The notes under the pieces are model-generated. The model did no database searches. It was not told the DNA's origin and was given only the letters and a program-made list of their open reading frames with translations. From the NCBI GenBank assembly GCA_902825965.1, contig CADEDA010000008.1, forward strand, positions 1-64,000: a DNA stretch of 64,000 nt, written 5' to 3'. A program made the translations under genes and the position numbers. Source of the stretch: an uncultured Gemmatimonadota bacterium (GTDB taxonomy: Bacteria > Gemmatimonadota > Gemmatimonadetes > Gemmatimonadales > Gemmatimonadaceae). Shown here one piece after another: positions 12,862-20,457 of the stretch (the first letter of the stretch is position 1; the number at the start of each line of letters is the position of its first letter).

Positions 12862-13395
12862 TCACTTGGCCATCAGCGGCCTGAGCAGTTCGGCCGTCAT
12901 CGCGCCGCTGTGCGACTTGGAGGCCTCGCGGACGGACGCGACCTCGGCAGCCGTCACCGCGCTCGCCGCGTTGCCCCAGGAGGTGCGGATGTACGTCACG
13001 ACCTGCGCGACCTCCTCGTCGCTCATCGTGATCCCGATGCCGTAGGCGGGCATCAGGCTGTTGAACGCCTCGCCCTTCACCGTGATCGGGCCCTGCAGCC
13101 CGTGGATGACCACGCGGATCGGCACGCCGGCATCCGATGCGAGCACGTACTCCGAGCCGGCGAGCGCCGGGTACACACCCGTGGCGCCAAGCCCGTTGGC
13201 CTGGTGGCAGCTGACGCAGCGCTGCGCGTAGATGCGTTCTCCCGCGGCCTGTTGCGCGGCCGGTTGCGCGGCGGCGGGCGGCGTGCTGGCCGCGCTCGCC
13301 GCGGCGTCGGCAGCGGGCTGCTCGCCACCGCAGGCGACGGCGAGCGTCAGGAAGGCGGCAATGCGGACCTGGCGGCGGATCGACGTGCGGGTCAT
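12862..13395 (-). CDS. Lipoprotein monoheme cytochrome c of the nos cluster
   Basis: 177 residues, ATG 13395 preceded by GGAG. The signal ends in a lipobox LAVAC, predicting lipid anchoring. An Ala/Pro-rich spacer (about 25-50) leads to one class I heme c domain with CVSCH near 60 and a distal Met in LMPAYG near 115. It is the last gene of the leftward nos operon, 49 bases after nosY. Its position and periplasmic location make it the likely electron donor to NosZ, replacing the NosC-type cytochromes of other clade II clusters; that role is inferred. Confidence 0.88.
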   Translation of the reverse strand: MTRTSIRRQVRIAAFLTLAVACGGEQPAADAAASAASTPPAAAQPAAQQAAGERIYAQRCVSCHQANGLGATGVYPALAGSEYVLASDAGVPIRVVIHGLQGPITVKGEAFNSLMPAYGIGITMSDEEVAQVVTYIRTSWGNAASAVTAAEVASVREASKSHSGAMTAELLRPLMAK

Positions 13396-13444: not shown

Positions 13445-14236
13445 TCAGAAATCGCGCCGCAGGAACCGGCGCCGGGCGAACAGGTAGGGCACGACCGCCC
13501 AGAGCATGAGTGCCGCGATCGCGAGCACGGGCCCGAGGGCCGTACCGAACGCGCGACGGAACAACGCGCCCGTGTAGCCCAGCAAGGCCGCCGCGTCGAG
13601 TGCGGTGAGGACGAGCACACGCGCCACGTCGACCGGGTTGCCGAGCATGAGGCCGAGCAGGGGCCGCTCGAGCGGCCAGTCCCCGAACGCGGAGACGAGG
13701 GCGAGGACCGCCGCATCGTACCCGATGGTGAGCACGAACCAGGCGCCGAGCGCGACCGCCATGCCGCGCAGCCGGTCGTCCGTGCGGAGCGCGATGGCCA
13801 TGGCGATGCCGGCGAAGGCCGCGGTGAGCAGCACCCCGGCGCAGGCGAGGTACCACAGCGCCCGCCACGGGGCATCACTCGACGCCGCGTGCAGCGCGAG
13901 CGGGACCCCGAGGCCCACGACGAACGCGGCCGCCAGTGGCAGGGCAAGACCGAGGTACAGGCCCGCGAACACCGCCCGTCGCGGCAGCGGCTGCGCCAGC
14001 AGCAGCTCGACGAACTCCCGCGACGCGTACACGTGCATGGTCCCGAACACCAGCGCGACCAGCGGCACGAGGAGCAGCGTGGCATTGAGCAGGCTCAGGA
14101 GCACCTGGTTCCCGGTGCCGCCGAAGAAGAACAGCGACTCGGCGATGGCACCGAGCACGATCGCGTACGCGAGCAGCCAGCGGTTGCGAGCGAGGTCGCG
14201 CACGCCGGCGCGCAGCACGAGGACCAGCGCGTTCAT
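13445..14236 (-). CDS. nosY: NosY-type ABC transporter permease
   Basis: 263 residues, six hydrophobic segments (for example AYAIVLGAIAESLFFFGG near 30 and AIALMLWAVVPYLFA-like near the C-terminus). It overlaps nosF by four bases (ATGA). Together with NosF and NosD it forms the complex that supplies sulfur and copper chemistry for the CuZ cluster of nitrous-oxide reductase in the periplasm. Assignment as NosY rests on this context plus the ABC-2 permease pattern. Confidence 0.88.
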   Translation of the reverse strand: MNALVLVLRAGVRDLARNRWLLAYAIVLGAIAESLFFFGGTGNQVLLSLLNATLLLVPLVALVFGTMHVYASREFVELLLAQPLPRRAVFAGLYLGLALPLAAAFVVGLGVPLALHAASSDAPWRALWYLACAGVLLTAAFAGIAMAIALRTDDRLRGMAVALGAWFVLTIGYDAAVLALVSAFGDWPLERPLLGLMLGNPVDVARVLVLTALDAAALLGYTGALFRRAFGTALGPVLAIAALMLWAVVPYLFARRRFLRRDF

Positions 14237-14991
14237 GCGGGCCTCGCGTCCCGCCCGGCGCCCATGGCACCGGGGCCGGTCGTCGCCAATCGCAATCCGC
14301 CCAGGAGCGCCGCGATGGCGGGTTCGAGCCGGCGCATGCCGGTCTGTTCGAGCAGCAGCGACACCGGGCCGGCGAAGCGCAGGCGTCCGTCGGTGAGGAA
14401 CGCCACGTCGTCCGCGAGCTCCTCGAGTTCGCTCAGGATGTGTGAGGTGATGAGCACCGTCCGGCCGGCCTCCCGAGCGTGGCGCACGGCCTGCTTGAAC
14501 ACCCCGGCGGCGATCGGATCGAGGCCTGCCGTGGGCTCGTCGAGGATCAACACGTCCGGCCGGAAGAGGAACGCGCAGGCCAGACTGACCTTCTGCCGCC
14601 AGCCACCGGACAGCGTCCCCACCGGTGTCGCCCACTCGGCGCGCAGGCCGAAGTCGTCCATGAGCGACTCATCGAGCGTCGCGGTCGGCCGCAGGGCCCG
14701 GAGCATCGCAACGATCTCGCCGATGGCGAGGTTCTCAGGGAAGCGCGGGGACTGCGGCGCATAGCCGATGCGGGCGCGATACGCGCCGTCCTCGTCCGTC
14801 GGCGCTCCCGCGAGCAGGATGCGGCCGGCATCGGCGCGTGCGAGGCCGAGGAGGAGCTTGATGAGCGTGGTCTTGCCGGAGCCGTTGGGTCCCACCAACC
14901 CGGTCACGCGACCGGGAACGAGCCCGAGCGAGACGCCGTCCAGCACCGCGCGCGCCCCGTAGGCTTTGCGGAGTCCGTCGAAGGAGATCAT
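14233..14991 (-). CDS. nosF: NosF-type ABC transporter ATPase
   Basis: 252 residues. Walker A GPNGSGKTT near 34-42, Q-loop APQSP near 80, signature LSGGWRQKVSLA near 128, Walker B LILDEPTAGLDP near 150 and switch His in ITSHILSE near 183. It energises the NosY/NosD system for CuZ maturation. The ATG overlaps the nosD stop by four bases and its own stop overlaps nosY, so the three are translationally coupled. Confidence 0.93.
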   Translation of the reverse strand: MISFDGLRKAYGARAVLDGVSLGLVPGRVTGLVGPNGSGKTTLIKLLLGLARADAGRILLAGAPTDEDGAYRARIGYAPQSPRFPENLAIGEIVAMLRALRPTATLDESLMDDFGLRAEWATPVGTLSGGWRQKVSLACAFLFRPDVLILDEPTAGLDPIAAGVFKQAVRHAREAGRTVLITSHILSELEELADDVAFLTDGRLRFAGPVSLLLEQTGMRRLEPAIAALLGGLRLATTGPGAMGAGRDARPA

Positions 14992-16331
14992 CGCGGGGCC
15001 CGCATGAGTGGACGGGGGTCGGCCAGGGCGGGCGTCAGCACCGGGAACACCCGCTCGGCGCCATCGAGCACGGCGCTCACCGGCGCCCGCAGGAGGATCA
15101 GCGCTTCGGGGTGCTTCTCGACCACCAGCGCGAAGAGCCGCACGGGGCGATGCGGCACGTCGCCCGCACCGTCGCGGTCGAGGTCGTAGCCCCGGTACGC
15201 ATCCCACCAGTTGCCGTCGAAGCTGCTGCGCAGCGTCCGGCTGTTGGTGGCGACGTCGAACCCGTTCCCACGGAACAGGTTGCCGACGAAGCGACTGTCC
15301 TCCGCGTCCGCCATCAGGCGCACGGCCCAGCCGTTCTCGACGAAATCGTTGTCGGCGATCGAGAGTCGCGAGGCTCCCTCGAGGTAGAGACCGGTGGAGT
15401 TGCCCGCGAAGCGATTGCCCGTGAGGGCGCCGTCCGTGATCTCCTTGAGCAGGAGCCCGTAGGCCGCACTGCCCTTGGCATCGAGGAACCCGTTGCCGAC
15501 CATGGTCACGCCCTTGCTGTACATCACGGCCACACCGGCACCGTTCGCGCGGAACGTGTTGCGCTCGTAGCGGCAGGAGTCGGAGAACATGAAGTGCAGG
15601 CCGTAGCGGCGATTGCCCTCGCTGCGATTGCCGCGGGCCTCCGAGCCGCGCGAGAACTCGAAGTAGATGCCGTCGCGCTGGCCGCGGATCCGGTTGTCGA
15701 GGACCCGCGTGTGCGGCGAGTACCACAGGTGGATGCCGTTCCCGTTGCTGGTCTCGTCGCGCGAGGCGCCGATGATCTCGTTGCCCCGCACCTCGCAACC
15801 GGACGACTTCTGCAGGTAGATCGCGAAGAGCGCGTCGCGGAACCGGTTCTCCAGGATGCGGCAGCGCGCCGATTCGATCACCCGCAGCGCGGCGCGGTCC
15901 TGCATATGGCTCACCCCCGTGTTCACGAAGCGGAGCCCGCGCACCGTCACGTCATCGGCGCGGACGACGAGCAGCTCGCGCTGCCCCTCCCCGTCGAGGG
16001 TCGGCCAACCCTCGCCGATGATGCTCAGTCCCGGCGTGCGCACCTCGACCGTCGGCCCGCGATACGTCCCCGCCGCGATGCGGATGGTGCTGCCGGGCGC
16101 GGCCGCCGCCACCGCCTCCGCCAGGCCCGCGTACACCACAACGCCCGGCCTCGCGCTGGCGGACGCCGCCGGTGGCGCCATCACCGTGACCTGCGCGTGC
16201 GCGTGCGCGTGCGCTTGCGCGTGCGCGGCGAGCGGCGCTGCGCCGAGCGCCAGCAGCACGGCAAGGATCCGGGCGCCGCGCACTGCGGGGCGCCCGTCGG
16301 TGCAGACGCCGCCGCAACCCTCAGTGCGCAC
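14988..16331 (-). CDS. nosD: NosD, periplasmic copper-site maturation protein
   Basis: Right-handed beta-helix (CASH/NosD) protein for NosZ CuZ assembly. GTG 16331 is chosen because GGGAGGG lies just upstream (447 residues); GTG 16283 would give 431 residues with a shorter n-region. The signal peptide core ILAVLLALGAAPLAAHA is cut before QAHAHAHAQ, a His-Ala repeat coded by a hexanucleotide repeat. Parallel beta-helix repeats follow from about 90 to 380 (VRGLRFVNTG, CRILENRFRDALFAIYLQKSS, NGIHLWYSPHTRVLDNRIRG). The C-terminal segment carries NWWDAYRGYDLDRDGAGDVPHRP, the conserved NosD ending. It overlaps nosL slightly and nosF by four bases. Confidence 0.93.
   Translation of the reverse strand: MRTEGCGGVCTDGRPAVRGARILAVLLALGAAPLAAHAQAHAHAHAQVTVMAPPAASASARPGVVVYAGLAEAVAAAAPGSTIRIAAGTYRGPTVEVRTPGLSIIGEGWPTLDGEGQRELLVVRADDVTVRGLRFVNTGVSHMQDRAALRVIESARCRILENRFRDALFAIYLQKSSGCEVRGNEIIGASRDETSNGNGIHLWYSPHTRVLDNRIRGQRDGIYFEFSRGSEARGNRSEGNRRYGLHFMFSDSCRYERNTFRANGAGVAVMYSKGVTMVGNGFLDAKGSAAYGLLLKEITDGALTGNRFAGNSTGLYLEGASRLSIADNDFVENGWAVRLMADAEDSRFVGNLFRGNGFDVATNSRTLRSSFDGNWWDAYRGYDLDRDGAGDVPHRPVRLFALVVEKHPEALILLRAPVSAVLDGAERVFPVLTPALADPRPLMRAPR
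16193..16226. repeat. GCGTGC hexanucleotide repeat in nosD
   Basis: On the plus strand the hexamer GCGTGC is repeated about five times with one variant copy (GCTTGC). On the coding strand it reads CAC GCG and codes alternating His-Ala just after the predicted NosD signal-peptide cleavage site. Such a repeat can gain or lose units by slippage in frame. Confidence 0.7.
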
Positions 16332-16782
16332 CGTGCCCTCCCGCGCCGTGCCCGGCGATCCCGGCGCTATCGCGCCGCACGGCCTCCCAGCTGGCCAGCG
16401 TCCCGCCGAGTCGTTGCTGCGCGGTGCTGGCCGCGTGCGGCGAGGCGAAGGCGACGATGCGGCCCATCGGCGAGTGCAACGTGGCGTCCACGAGGTAGCC
16501 CGCGTCGGCGGCGGGCACCCACCGGCCCTTGTCGGCCGCGTCGGCGACGTACACGGCGCGGGTCGTCGACACGTCGCTGCCGCCGAGATATCCGACGAGG
16601 CACTCCACGCTGTCGAAGACCACGACCTTGCCCGTGCCGGTGACCACCTGCGTGGCGAACCTCGCGTCGCTGACTTCCATGCGACAGAAGCCGCACTGGT
16701 CCTCGCGCTCGACCACCGCACGCGGCCCGGGGGCGGCGCAGGCGGCGGCGAGCAGCCACAGCGACACCACCCGCGCGTTCAC
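16321..16782 (-). CDS. nosL: NosL copper-chaperone lipoprotein
   Basis: 153 residues from GTG 16782, overlapping the previous stop as GTGA. The signal ends in a lipobox (LLAAACAAP). The copper-binding motif CGFCRMEVSDARFA near residue 31 matches the NosL CxxCxM pattern, followed by FDSVECLVGYL and a C-terminal His-rich tail (GHGAGGHGAH) that may add metal ligands. It is thought to deliver Cu(I) to NosZ in the periplasm. Confidence 0.92.
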   Translation of the reverse strand: MNARVVSLWLLAAACAAPGPRAVVEREDQCGFCRMEVSDARFATQVVTGTGKVVVFDSVECLVGYLGGSDVSTTRAVYVADAADKGRWVPAADAGYLVDATLHSPMGRIVAFASPHAASTAQQRLGGTLASWEAVRRDSAGIAGHGAGGHGAH

Positions 16783-17366
16783 GCCGCCTCCCGGCGCGTG
16801 CGCGCCGTCTGGACGATGGCGACGGCGACCAACAGCGCCGCCACGCCCATGGCCAGGCCGCCGGTGGACGGCCAGGAGTTCGCGCGGAAGTTGAGCAGCT
16901 GCTTCGAACCGATCACCGGAGGTGAGTACGTCATACCGGGGATCTTGATGATCGCGTGATCGCGGTCGATGTCGTGCCCGTAGTCGTAGCCCCAACGCCA
17001 GTAGTCCCAGAGGCCGGCGGCGAGCAGCAGTCCGAGCGCGGCGCCCCAGAGGTACAGCAGCAGGCGTCGCCGCGCCGCGGCCACGAGCAGCCCGCCCGCC
17101 ATCAGGCCGGCGAGGATCCACGGCATCCAGCGCAGCTCCGGGATCGCCTCCGGCACGATGGCCTTCATACCGATGTAGTGATTGAGTCCGTTGATGCTGT
17201 GGAGGTCGTTCGGCTTGACGCCCTCGACACCGTCGATGCGGATGAGCATCCCGAGGCCCTCCGGGTACTGCGGCGCGACGAGGTCGACGCGCCACAGCGG
17301 GAAGACGTAGGCGGTGCCGAGGAGCGCGACCGCCGCAAGCACGAGCCAGCGAGCCCGGGATGTCAT
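16779..17366 (-). CDS. NosB-like four-helix membrane protein of the nos cluster
   Basis: 195 residues, ATG 17366 with GAGGA upstream, 11 bases after nosZ. Four membrane segments are visible (about 6-24, 80-97, 102-120, 165-188). The long periplasmic loop after helix 1 carries LHSINGLNHYIGMKAI; the loop before helix 4 carries DRDHAIIKIPGMTYSPPVIG. It sits where clade II clusters have nosB, a membrane protein of unknown role. The NosB name is inferred from position and topology only. Conserved His residues (Leu-His-Ser-Ile, Asn-His-Tyr) could bind metal or heme. Confidence 0.7.
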   Translation of the reverse strand: MTSRARWLVLAAVALLGTAYVFPLWRVDLVAPQYPEGLGMLIRIDGVEGVKPNDLHSINGLNHYIGMKAIVPEAIPELRWMPWILAGLMAGGLLVAAARRRLLLYLWGAALGLLLAAGLWDYWRWGYDYGHDIDRDHAIIKIPGMTYSPPVIGSKQLLNFRANSWPSTGGLAMGVAALLVAVAIVQTARTRREAA

Positions 17367-17377
17367 CGCACGGTCCT

Positions 17378-19363
17378 CTAGTTGGAGCCGCTTCGCGCGG
17401 CCGACTTGGACGTGTTCGCCTTCAGCGCCACGCTGCTGCCCGAGGGCGACACACGGACGTATCCCTGCATCTCCTGGTGCAGCGCCGAGCAGAAGTCGGT
17501 GCAGTACATCGGATAGACCCCGGCCTTCGTCGGCGTCCATCGCAACGTCCGGGTCTCGCCCGGCATGATGAGCAGCTCGGCGTTGGTGGCACCGAGGATG
17601 GCGAAGCCGTGGGGGACGTCCCAGTCCTGCTCGAGGTTGGTGACGTGGAAGAGCACCGTGTCACCGACCTGGACGCCCTCGATGTTGTCCGGCGCGAAGT
17701 GCGAGCGCGTGGCGGTCATGCGGACGTGCACGACGTTGCCGCGGCGCTCGAGCCCGACCTCCCGCTCCGCGCGGGCGACGTGCGGGTGCCGGTTCTCGGC
17801 CAGCGAGTAGAACTTCACCTGCCGTTCCTTGATGAGCTTGGCGTCCAGCGCGTTGGCGTAGTGCGGCTCGCCCTGCGTGGGGAAGTCGAGCAGGAGCTGC
17901 ATCTTCTCGCCGGAGATGTCGTAGAGCTGCGCCGAGTGCGTGAGCTCCGGCCCCGTGGGGAGGTAGCGGTCCTTGGTGATCTTGTTCATCGCCAGCGCGT
18001 ACTTGCCGAACGGCTTGGCCGTCGCGCCGCCGGGGATCATGAGGTGGCCCACCGAGTAGTAGGTCGGCGCGCGATCCACGACCTCCCAGGTCCCGAGCTT
18101 CCACTTCACGATCTCGCTCGAGATGAACATCGAGGTGTAGGCGTAGCCCTTGCCGTCGAACTCGGTGTGCAGCGGCCCGAGGCCCGGCTCCTTCACTTCG
18201 CCCGCGAGGGTGGACTCGTACTTGAGCACCGGGATGCCCTCGAGGTCGCCCTCGAACGCCTTGTCCTTGATGGCCTGCAGCATCTTCTTCGTCGAGTGCA
18301 CCGGGATCACCGTGGCCAGCTTGCCACCGGCGACCACGAACTCGCCCGTCGGATCGACGTCGGCCCCGTGCGGCGACTTGGGCGTCGGCAGGAAGTACAT
18401 GACCCCCGGGCAGTCCGCCGGTAGGATCTGCATGACGGAGGTCTTGCGCTCCGACCGCGCCACCCGGCTGAACTCGTCAAGGTAGTTGTGCCGGTAGTCG
18501 ACGCTGGCCCGGCGGCCCTTGCCCTGCTGCATGCAGGCCTCGGCGGCACGGAAGTTCACGGCCGCGATGTAGTCCTTGTCGGCCTGCGACGCGTTGACCT
18601 CGAGCAGCGTGTTCGCCTGCTCGGAGTTGTAGGAGGTGAAGAACATCCAGCCGGCCGAGGGGCCCTTGCCGGCGCGCGCGAGGTCGTAGTTGAACCCGGG
18701 CACGACGAGCTGGAAGGCGATGTCCATCTTCCCCGGCTGGTCGGCGGTGATGAAGGAGATCTGGCCCTTGAAGTGCTTCTTGTACTCCTCGATCGGCACG
18801 TCGCGGTTGGGCACCGGGATCGAGAACCGCGTGGACGAGACGATGTACTCCGAGTTCTCGGTGACGAACGGCGAGGCGTGGTTGCCGCCGGCGTTGGGGA
18901 TCTCGAGGATCTCGGTGGTCTCGAAGTGCGTGAGGTCGATGCGCGCCACGCGCGGGGTGTTGTTGCCGTTCACGAAGAGCCAGCGGCCGTCATCCTCGCC
19001 CTTGGTCTGCGAGAGCGCGGTGTGGTGCAGGTCGTCCCAAGGGATGAACCCGAACGAGGTCTCCAGCATGGGGCGCGTCTCCTCGGAGTAGCCCCAGCCG
19101 TTCTCGGCGTGCTGCGAGAACACGGGGACCGTCTTCAGGAGGCGGCCGGAGGGCAGCCCGTACACGCCGACCTGGCCGCCGAAGCCGCCGGAGAGGAAGG
19201 CATAGAGTTCGTCGTGCTCACCGGGCGCGACGTAGACGCGGCGGGCATTGTCGCCGGAGCCCGCGAGGGAGGAGCTGCGGGACCCCGCACAGGCGTAGGT
19301 GAGGCCGCCGAGGAGGACGGCACCCGCGGCGAGCAGGATCCGCGATCGAGTGGATGGGGACAT
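17378..19363 (-). CDS. nosZ: Nitrous-oxide reductase, clade II (Sec-type)
   Basis: Periplasmic copper enzyme reducing N2O to N2. ATG 19363 (661 residues) has GAGG six bases upstream; an open frame reaching 19468 would place the operator inside the gene and is rejected. The signal peptide (RSRILLAAGAVLLGGLTYAC) lacks a twin-arginine motif, the mark of clade II. CuZ histidines can be seen in DDLHHTALS, GGNHASP, SPHGADVDP, GPLHTEFDG, SVGHLMIPGG and GEPHYANA. The C-terminal CuA domain has MYCTDFCSALHQEM with its Cys, Cys, His and Met ligands and an upstream His (DVPHGF). It heads the leftward nos operon under the NsrR-type operator. Confidence 0.97.
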   Translation of the reverse strand: MSPSTRSRILLAAGAVLLGGLTYACAGSRSSSLAGSGDNARRVYVAPGEHDELYAFLSGGFGGQVGVYGLPSGRLLKTVPVFSQHAENGWGYSEETRPMLETSFGFIPWDDLHHTALSQTKGEDDGRWLFVNGNNTPRVARIDLTHFETTEILEIPNAGGNHASPFVTENSEYIVSSTRFSIPVPNRDVPIEEYKKHFKGQISFITADQPGKMDIAFQLVVPGFNYDLARAGKGPSAGWMFFTSYNSEQANTLLEVNASQADKDYIAAVNFRAAEACMQQGKGRRASVDYRHNYLDEFSRVARSERKTSVMQILPADCPGVMYFLPTPKSPHGADVDPTGEFVVAGGKLATVIPVHSTKKMLQAIKDKAFEGDLEGIPVLKYESTLAGEVKEPGLGPLHTEFDGKGYAYTSMFISSEIVKWKLGTWEVVDRAPTYYSVGHLMIPGGATAKPFGKYALAMNKITKDRYLPTGPELTHSAQLYDISGEKMQLLLDFPTQGEPHYANALDAKLIKERQVKFYSLAENRHPHVARAEREVGLERRGNVVHVRMTATRSHFAPDNIEGVQVGDTVLFHVTNLEQDWDVPHGFAILGATNAELLIMPGETRTLRWTPTKAGVYPMYCTDFCSALHQEMQGYVRVSPSGSSVALKANTSKSAARSGSN

Positions 19364-19441
19364 GGGAACCTCGCGCCAGGCGAAGAGGGGGGAATCAGGC
19401 CGGAACGTCCGGCGGCGCCGGCCCTTGTGCCGGGTGTCCAT

Positions 19442-19464
19442 AAGGTGCATATTACTTGCACCTT
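19442..19464. promoter_or_regulatory. NsrR-type operator overlapping the divergent nosZ and nsrR promoters
   Basis: An 11-1-11 inverted repeat: AAGGTGCATAT, one central T, then ACTTGCACCTT. The outer eight bases of each arm (AAGGTGCA / TGCACCTT) are perfectly complementary, and the pattern equals the known NsrR site AAGATGCAT-type palindrome with one change per arm. The minus strand contains TAATAT (19454-19449) and the plus strand CATATT (19448-19453), so both putative -10 hexamers lie inside the operator and bound regulator would block both directions. Confidence 0.85.
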
Positions 19465-19524
19465 TCATCCAGTCCGAGAACTCCGGATTCGATGTGAGGG
19501 AAACCCCCAGTGACCGGAGCCTGT

Positions 19525-19962
19525 GTGCGACTCACCCGCCATACGGACAACGCCCTCCGCGCCCTCATCTACCTCGCCATCCATCGCGAGGACGAGAGCC
19601 CCGCGCGCATCACCGACATCGCACGCCGCATGGGGATGAGCGAGGAGCATCTCTCCAAGGTCATCGCCCGGCTCGCCACCCTCGGACTCGTCGACACCCT
19701 CCGCGGGCGCGTCGGCGGCGTGCGCCTCGCGCGCCCCGCGGACCGCATCACCGTGGGGGCCGTCGTGCGCGCCACCGAGGACAACCTCGCGCTCGTCGAA
19801 TGCTTCGACCCCAGCACCAACCAATGCCCGATTGCGCCGGCCTGCGCCCTCGCTCCGGCGCTGGACGAAGCCCTGCAGGCCTTCCTCGGCGTGCTCGATC
19901 GTTACACGCTGGCCGATCTCGTCGCCAGACCCCGCGCGCTCAGTCGACTCCTCATCGCTTGA
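19525..19962 (+). CDS. nsrR: NsrR-type Rrf2 family iron-sulfur nitric-oxide sensor
   Basis: Rrf2 winged-helix repressor, 145 residues from GTG 19525. This start is preferred over GTG 19510 because it aligns with NsrR (LTRHTDNALRALIYLA after residue 2) and places Asp8, the known fourth cluster ligand of NsrR, correctly. Recognition helix region MGMSEEHLSKVIARLATLG at 36-54. Cluster cysteines Cys93, Cys101 and Cys107 (ECF, then CPIAPAC). NO would damage the iron-sulfur cluster and release the operator just upstream, so NO would induce nosZ and nsrR itself. The gene is followed by the four-helix protein at 19999. Confidence 0.92.
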   Translation: MRLTRHTDNALRALIYLAIHREDESPARITDIARRMGMSEEHLSKVIARLATLGLVDTLRGRVGGVRLARPADRITVGAVVRATEDNLALVECFDPSTNQCPIAPACALAPALDEALQAFLGVLDRYTLADLVARPRALSRLLIA

Positions 19963-19998: not shown

Positions 19999-20457
19999 GT
20001 GGATTGGTTCGTTCGCGCATTCCTCAAGGCGAGCCTCGTCTGGCTCTCCGCTGCCGTGGCCCTCGCCGTCGCGATGGCGCTGGTGCCCGCGCTCACGGTC
20101 TACCGCACCGCGCACCTCCATCTCGCGCTGCTCGGCTTCGTCACGCAGATGATCTACGGGGTCGCCTTGCACGTGGTCCCGCGCTTCTTCGGCCAGCCGC
20201 TGGTGCATCGCCGCGCGGCGGAGGTGCAGTTCTGGGCGGCAGAGCTCGGCGTGGCCGCGCTGGTGGCGGGATTCATCGCGCGTGTGCATGGCGCGGGCGC
20301 CTCGCCGGCACTGCTCGCGGTCGGTGCCGCGGCCTCCGCGACCGCCGCCGGGTGTTTCGTCGTCAACCTCTGGCGCACGATGGACGCGTCGCCGATGCAA
20401 CGCGTCAATGCGACGGGGCGACCGGTCCCGGTGCTGCCGCAGTCAGACGCCCACTGA
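19999..20457 (+). CDS. Small four-helix membrane protein resembling a heme-copper oxidase subunit I fragment
   Basis: 152 residues from GTG 19999 with GGAG eight bases upstream. Four membrane helices (about 8-30, 39-62, 73-95, 100-124). Helix 2 and its entrance carry HLHLALLGFVTQMIYGVALHVVPRFFG with His39, His41 and His58, a pattern seen in heme-copper oxidase/NO reductase subunit I and NnrS-type proteins. It follows nsrR by 36 bases, so it should share the NO-responsive promoter. A role in NO tolerance or heme binding is inferred; no family name is certain. Its last 53 bases overlap the convergent maf gene. Confidence 0.72.
   Translation: MDWFVRAFLKASLVWLSAAVALAVAMALVPALTVYRTAHLHLALLGFVTQMIYGVALHVVPRFFGQPLVHRRAAEVQFWAAELGVAALVAGFIARVHGAGASPALLAVGAAASATAAGCFVVNLWRTMDASPMQRVNATGRPVPVLPQSDAH

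Follow-up and report, generated by a model that had tools for sequence, protein, structure and literature searches.

How do bacteria of the phylum Gemmatimonadota decide to make nitrous oxide reductase? In soils, where Gemmatimonadota are abundant, non-denitrifying bacteria with a clade II NosZ can act as a net biological N2O sink, and a conserved NsrR-type operator over the promoter gives the question a testable answer. The locus lies in the window, i.e. the whole stretch of 64,000 nucleotides that was analysed, from the genome of an uncultured member of the Gemmatimonadaceae.

The nos locus and its neighbors

The nosZ gene (17378..19363, minus strand) encodes a Sec-dependent nitrous oxide reductase of 661 residues, which the first-pass annotation had correctly placed in clade II: it scores 918.9 bits with TIGR04246 (cut-off 625) and 344.7 bits with the TAT-type model, below the cut-off of the latter. 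Its nearest catalogued relatives belong to the Gemmatimonadaceae, the best identity being 92%. The start codon shared with the relatives is ATG 19363, preceded by GAGGT; a mechanically called start at 19468, beyond the palindrome described below, is rejected for that reason. nosZ heads a cluster whose further genes all lie on the minus strand: a membrane protein without Pfam match (16779..17360), nosL (16321..16782, PF05573), nosD (14988..16313, PF05048), the ABC ATPase nosF (14233..14994, PF00005), the ABC-2 membrane protein nosY (13445..14236, PF12679), and a cytochrome c (12862..13389, PF00034).

Divergently from nosZ, on the plus strand, an Rrf2-type regulator gene (nsrR-like, 19525..19962) is followed directly by a gene for a truncated COX1/CcoN-like membrane protein of 152 residues (19999..20457, plus strand), which is likely co-transcribed with it and keeps this position in the genus. 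Paralogues of this small protein adjoin nirK in three genus members (G087, G023, G171), which suggests a role in the handling of NO or nitrogen oxides. NirK, NirS, and NO reductase were looked for in the window's genome (G000, 95% complete) and not found; the COX1-type matches in it are cbb3- and aa3-like by inspection. The organism thus presents itself as a nosZ-bearing, non-denitrifying N2O reducer, while five relatives in the genus have nirK. As no NO-making genes were found, any NO acting on this locus would have to come from neighbors or from outside.

A palindrome over two putative promoters

Between the two divergent genes lies the 23-bp palindrome AAGGTGCATATTACTTGCACCTT (19442..19464, assigned to neither strand), found exactly where the first-pass annotation had placed it and present in the window as a sole copy at up to three mismatches. 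It is built on an 11-1-11 plan, in which the eight outermost pairs of the arms are perfect and 9 of 11 pairs are formed overall; compared by hand, it fits the published NsrR consensus gATGyAT-N5-ATrCATc (PMC1274295) at 11 of 14 positions, and so follows the 23-bp plan of NsrR sites, as had been claimed. Counted upstream, it spans 79-101 bp from the start codon of nosZ and 61-83 bp from the likely GTG start of the regulator (19525). Symmetry alone is not rare: 23-mers with eight perfect outer pairs occur seven times in the window, where about 3.6 are expected at its composition, although only about 0.007 are expected by chance in the intergenic region. The strong evidence is conservation, which rules out a chance palindrome where the palindrome counts alone are unremarkable.

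Two putative promoters run into the palindrome from opposite sides. That of the regulator reads TTGTGC-17-CATATT (19425..19453, plus strand; -10 at 19448-19453) and that of nosZ reads CGGACT-16-TAATAT (19449..19476, minus strand; -10 at 19449-19454), so that both candidate -10 hexamers fall inside the palindrome. A generic sigma-70 promoter scan recognised neither of the two. The proposal that both hexamers lie in the operator is nevertheless plausible, since the -10/-35 pairs are conserved and their spacings retained in relatives: C[CG]GACT precedes the nosZ -10 by 14-16 bp in 10/10 genus loci, with TAANAT as -10 in eight of them, and TTG precedes the regulator -10 by 17 bp in eight loci and by 18 bp in two, with CATNTT in eight. 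One locus stands apart, that of G087, which has three mismatches in the operator and a weak nosZ -10. An operator over both putative -10 hexamers is in the position of a repressor for both genes.

Conservation within and beyond the genus

The genus set comprises 17 genomes: 10 that bear nosZ, six that have neither nosZ nor an ortholog of the regulator, and G172 (77% complete), which is omitted from the counts; it has the regulator and a site with three mismatches, and no nosZ was recovered from it. The operator occurs beside nosZ in all 10 nosZ-bearing genomes and in none of the six without nosZ (Fisher p = 0.0001, uncorrected for phylogeny). When the 10 intergenic regions are aligned, it forms the best-conserved 23-column window, with a mean column identity of 0.93 versus 0.62 elsewhere. 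Across the 17 genomes, the refined pattern is matched without mismatch in eight, only beside nosZ, with two mismatches in G128 and with three in G087, also beside nosZ; the reversed control pattern has no match. In G023, both arms are altered symmetrically, GGTGCA to GATGCA and TGCACC to TGCATC, as expected for the site of a dimer.

An Rrf2 gene is found divergent from nosZ in 42 distinct relatives, nine of them within the genus and 33 outside it. In these 33, the gene order is retained and a 23-bp palindrome often occupies the same place, with a different half-site: AAGTGG(T/C/A)AT...ATACCACTT in one group of genera and ATCTGGTAT...ATCCGAGAT in another. Several loci with divergent Rrf2, for example L041 and L093, yielded no clear operator. 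The half-site differences go with residues 40, 44, and 48 of the recognition helix, which hints at joint change of regulator and operator across genera; the groups are also clades, however, and thus do not give independent evidence. Loss of the palindrome from relatives with the same gene order had been named beforehand as grounds for giving up the idea; within the genus the palindrome is kept, and in several other genera a palindrome occupies the place with a changed half-site. Genus g26 has another strong palindrome, ATCCTCTA...TAGAGGAT, upstream of nosZ by the divergent Rrf2 gene, at about -133 (L043) and -147 (L149) from the nosZ start.

Within the genus, the window's genome included, convincing operators are confined to the nosZ side. 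With one convincing operator per genome, the regulator looks like a dedicated local switch. Typical NsrR regulons, although not strictly defined by them, contain genes of NO detoxification such as hmp, hcp, dnrN, and nnrS. A larger NsrR regulon in the genome is unlikely: the next-best match (G000:C10:96703, two mismatches) stands alone and is weak, like the hits that the reversed-pattern control also yields in related genomes, and the stretch around it showed no NO gene. The other weak palindromes seen in the genus (G128:C5, G170:C188, G087:C14) lie near genes for cytochrome c-like and fasciclin-like proteins.

The regulator and its predicted mode of action

The regulator probably starts at GTG 19525 (MRLTRHTD...), which aligns with its relatives and gives a protein of 145 residues; the start in the list of open reading frames, 19510, would add five. 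On this numbering, and only if translation starts there, Asp8, Cys93, Cys101, and Cys107 are placed as in NsrR, as proposed from the sequence at the outset, together with Arg12. All five residues occur in 43/43 nosZ-divergent homologues (42 relatives and the window). In Streptomyces coelicolor NsrR (ScNsrR), a [4Fe-4S] cluster is held by the three cysteines together with Asp8 from the partner subunit; Asp8, the fourth ligand, pairs with Arg12, and the exchange D8A abolishes DNA binding (PMC5411485). Asp8 and Arg12 are found as well in the Rrf2 proteins of Escherichia coli and gonococci and in hmp-linked ones. Among solved proteins, Streptomyces NsrR comes closest (5n07; E = 1e-24), ahead of IscR and CymR. 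With the full ligand set of NsrR and ScNsrR as its nearest solved relative, the protein bears out the first description of an NsrR-like regulator divergent from nosZ, and on sequence grounds NsrR-type is the fitting name for it.

Operator, conservation, gene order, ligand residues, and promoter geometry are all read directly from the sequences, and together they lend good support to the prediction of an NsrR-type repressor that is dedicated to a clade II nos operon and controls its own gene as well. We consider it likely that the divergent Rrf2 protein has its operator in the palindrome and acts as a [4Fe-4S] repressor of the nos operon that is released by NO. In the mechanism that we infer, in its DNA binding, repression, cluster type, NO signal, and second input alike, a dimer with intact cluster would occupy the palindrome, cover the -10 hexamers of both divergent promoters, and so shut off the nos operon together with its own gene and the small COX1-like gene that follows. 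NO would destroy the cluster, the dimer would leave, and both operons would be expressed. Given that this shared site is kept throughout the genus and overlies both putative promoters, NO probably helps to switch nosZ on. Against this reading stand the three operator mismatches and weak nosZ -10 of G087; the window's genome, in which the search for NirK, NirS, and NO reductase found none; and the reported transcription of nosZ in Gemmatimonas aurantiaca, for which no requirement for NO is mentioned.

A second conserved element and a FixL-like pair

A second palindromic element, GAGGGAAACCCCCA (19496..19509, assigned to neither strand), is conserved in genus and family with the motif (T/C)AGGG-N3/4-CCCT(A/G). 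Its center is 49.5 bp upstream of the operator center in the window and 47.5-50 bp upstream in 10/10 genus loci. The window copy is a weak match (8/10 arm bases), and the motif occurs in most family loci, also ahead of a nosZ without divergent Rrf2 gene. Further copies adjoin genes for TolC-like outer-membrane proteins of the metal-efflux type and precede a carbonic anhydrase-like gene (L236 at about 1548, L237 at about 1436, L235 at about 1537), and the regulon of this element may extend beyond nosZ.

The same motif, as GTAGGGGATTCCCCTAG and variants of it, precedes the gene for a LuxR-type response regulator in the eight genus genomes in which its promoter was read (L246, at 1426-1483; L244, L245, L247-L251), and in 3/3 loci read a gene for a PAS-containing kinase follows. 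The kinase in the window's genome has the architecture PAS-GAF-HisKA, its PAS domain being most similar to the heme-PAS of FixL (E = 1e-18); it contains a conserved His column, which we take to be the heme-ligand His of FixL. All 10 nosZ-bearing genomes of the genus encode the response regulator, as does one more; five genomes without nosZ lack it (p = 0.001, uncorrected). The second element lies near -60 relative to the nosZ start, which makes it a probable activator site, with predicted binding by an O2-responsive FixL-like kinase/response-regulator pair.

In G. aurantiaca, a member of the family, nosZ is reported to be transcribed during N2O reduction and to need O2 for transcription (as cited in PMC9530729 and PMC6264515); the second element is a concrete candidate for the O2 effect. 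The second palindrome and the FixL-like pair argue against NO as the only input, which it probably is not, and nosZ might integrate NO, through the NsrR-type repressor, with O2, through the pair at the second element. The first-pass reading, by which NO would switch on the reductase itself, thus keeps its NsrR-type repressor and operator, but is incomplete in leaving out the conserved palindrome about 49 bp upstream.

The weight could also be distributed the other way, with the O2-sensing pair as the main switch and derepression by NO merely permissive, the NsrR-type protein setting a threshold. The nearly fixed spacing of the element from the operator, its presence in family members without divergent Rrf2, the like palindromes before the response-regulator gene, the co-occurrence of that gene with nosZ in the genus, and the FixL-like PAS domain all speak for this; against it, the window's element is weak and the binding of the response regulator to it is what we infer. 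We regard this arrangement as possible, though rather unlikely.

NO, oxygen, or iron

If the NsrR-type protein is the repressor, its cluster could also be destroyed by O2 or by iron shortage, and a stronger form of this idea makes it a RirA-like sensor that reads O2 or iron supply and not mainly NO, with loss of the cluster in air or under iron shortage derepressing nosZ. RirA has three cysteines at corresponding positions, its cluster is broken by O2 or low iron (PMC6748827), and the reported O2 dependence of nosZ transcription in G. aurantiaca (PMC6264515) would fit. The profile scores point the same way and count against NO: the NCBIfam RirA model gives the window regulator 146 bits (cut-off 193), 21 more than the NsrR model at 125 bits (cut-off 182), both below threshold. 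The NsrR cut-off is not decisive and does not define the family, because the proven ScNsrR scores just 91.5 bits. In a tree of Rrf2 proteins with few references, the nosZ-divergent proteins group together (79/68), with the deeper order of NsrR and RirA not separated.

However, a true RirA, the one reference compared, scores 288.6 bits with the RirA model, far above the window protein, and has Asn8 and Phe42 where the window protein has Asp8, as do all its nosZ-divergent homologues, and His42, a residue of the recognition helix. Residue 8 and the score thus lower the case for identity with RirA. The site, moreover, fits the plan of NsrR sites, and its neighbor is a nitrogen-oxide gene and not a gene of iron uptake; no iron gene adjoins the nosZ intergenic region, the only one inspected for this. 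A RirA-like sensor is therefore improbable in our estimate, NO release of an NsrR-type repressor being the preferred reading. That the Rrf2 protein binds the palindrome as an activator, or controls only its own gene, is very unlikely: NsrR does activate some genes in Magnetospirillum (PMC11014258), but the site covers both putative -10 hexamers, as a repressor site would, with the nosZ -10 conserved inside it.

More tentatively, on a little less than even terms, this Gemmatimonadaceae non-denitrifier might use the NO of its neighbors as an advance signal for N2O, with the NsrR-type gate and the FixL-like pair near -60 forming a two-input switch of nosZ for NO and O2 that is undescribed for known denitrifiers. 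A response to NO from neighboring denitrifiers would, if true, tie the consumption of N2O to its production nearby.

Comparison with known systems

Control of nos genes by NsrR had at first been presented as unusual, which overstates its novelty: it was predicted in Photobacterium profundum in 2005 by Rodionov et al. (PMC1274295), and in 2024 NsrR of Magnetospirillum was shown to bind and repress the nosZ promoter and to be released by NO (PMC11014258). For Gemmatimonadota, no description of NsrR control of nosZ was found in a literature search outside of which most subscription papers lay. What is new here is the phylum, the clade II enzyme, and the one-site regulon in a genome in which NO-making genes were not found; also new is the additional conserved element that lies about 49 bp upstream and is linked to a FixL-like kinase/response-regulator pair.

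Clade II nos clusters are rich in Rrf2 genes (PMC6264515), and in several of them (L079, L081, L085, L121) an Rrf2 gene lies near nosZ as it does here. These proteins, however, belong to another subfamily, which lacks Asp8 and ends in C...C...C(P/A)xH. Members of this subfamily, with its Cys/His-rich C-terminal half, are mostly encoded co-directionally, about 0.5-1 kb upstream of nosZ (L124 and L129 are further cases), in Bacteroidota, Ignavibacteria, and some Gemmatimonadota. Rhizobial RirA resembles the window protein in its three cysteines at corresponding positions and in a high C-terminal similarity; it differs in residues 8 and 42, in its iron regulon, and in its IRO box.

The closest parallels are with NsrR proteins. 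In P. profundum an NsrR site on nos has likewise been proposed, although only as a prediction; the organism is a gammaproteobacterium whose NsrR regulon is wider and also includes norVW. NsrR of S. coelicolor (5n07, 7b0c) is an Rrf2 protein similar by sequence, with the same Asp8-Arg12-three-cysteine set, a 23-bp operator, a small regulon, and autoregulation; its target, however, is hmp and not nosZ, and its cysteines are spaced C-X5-C-X5-C instead of C-X7-C-X5-C. In Magnetospirillum gryphiswaldense MSR-1, NsrR acts at the nosZ promoter, and NO relieves the repression of denitrification genes (PMC11014258). In that full denitrifier NsrR acts globally, on nap, nir, nor, nos, nitrification, and magnetosome genes, whereas here a single operator, in front of a regulator gene divergent from nosZ, stands in a genome in which no NO-making enzyme was found.
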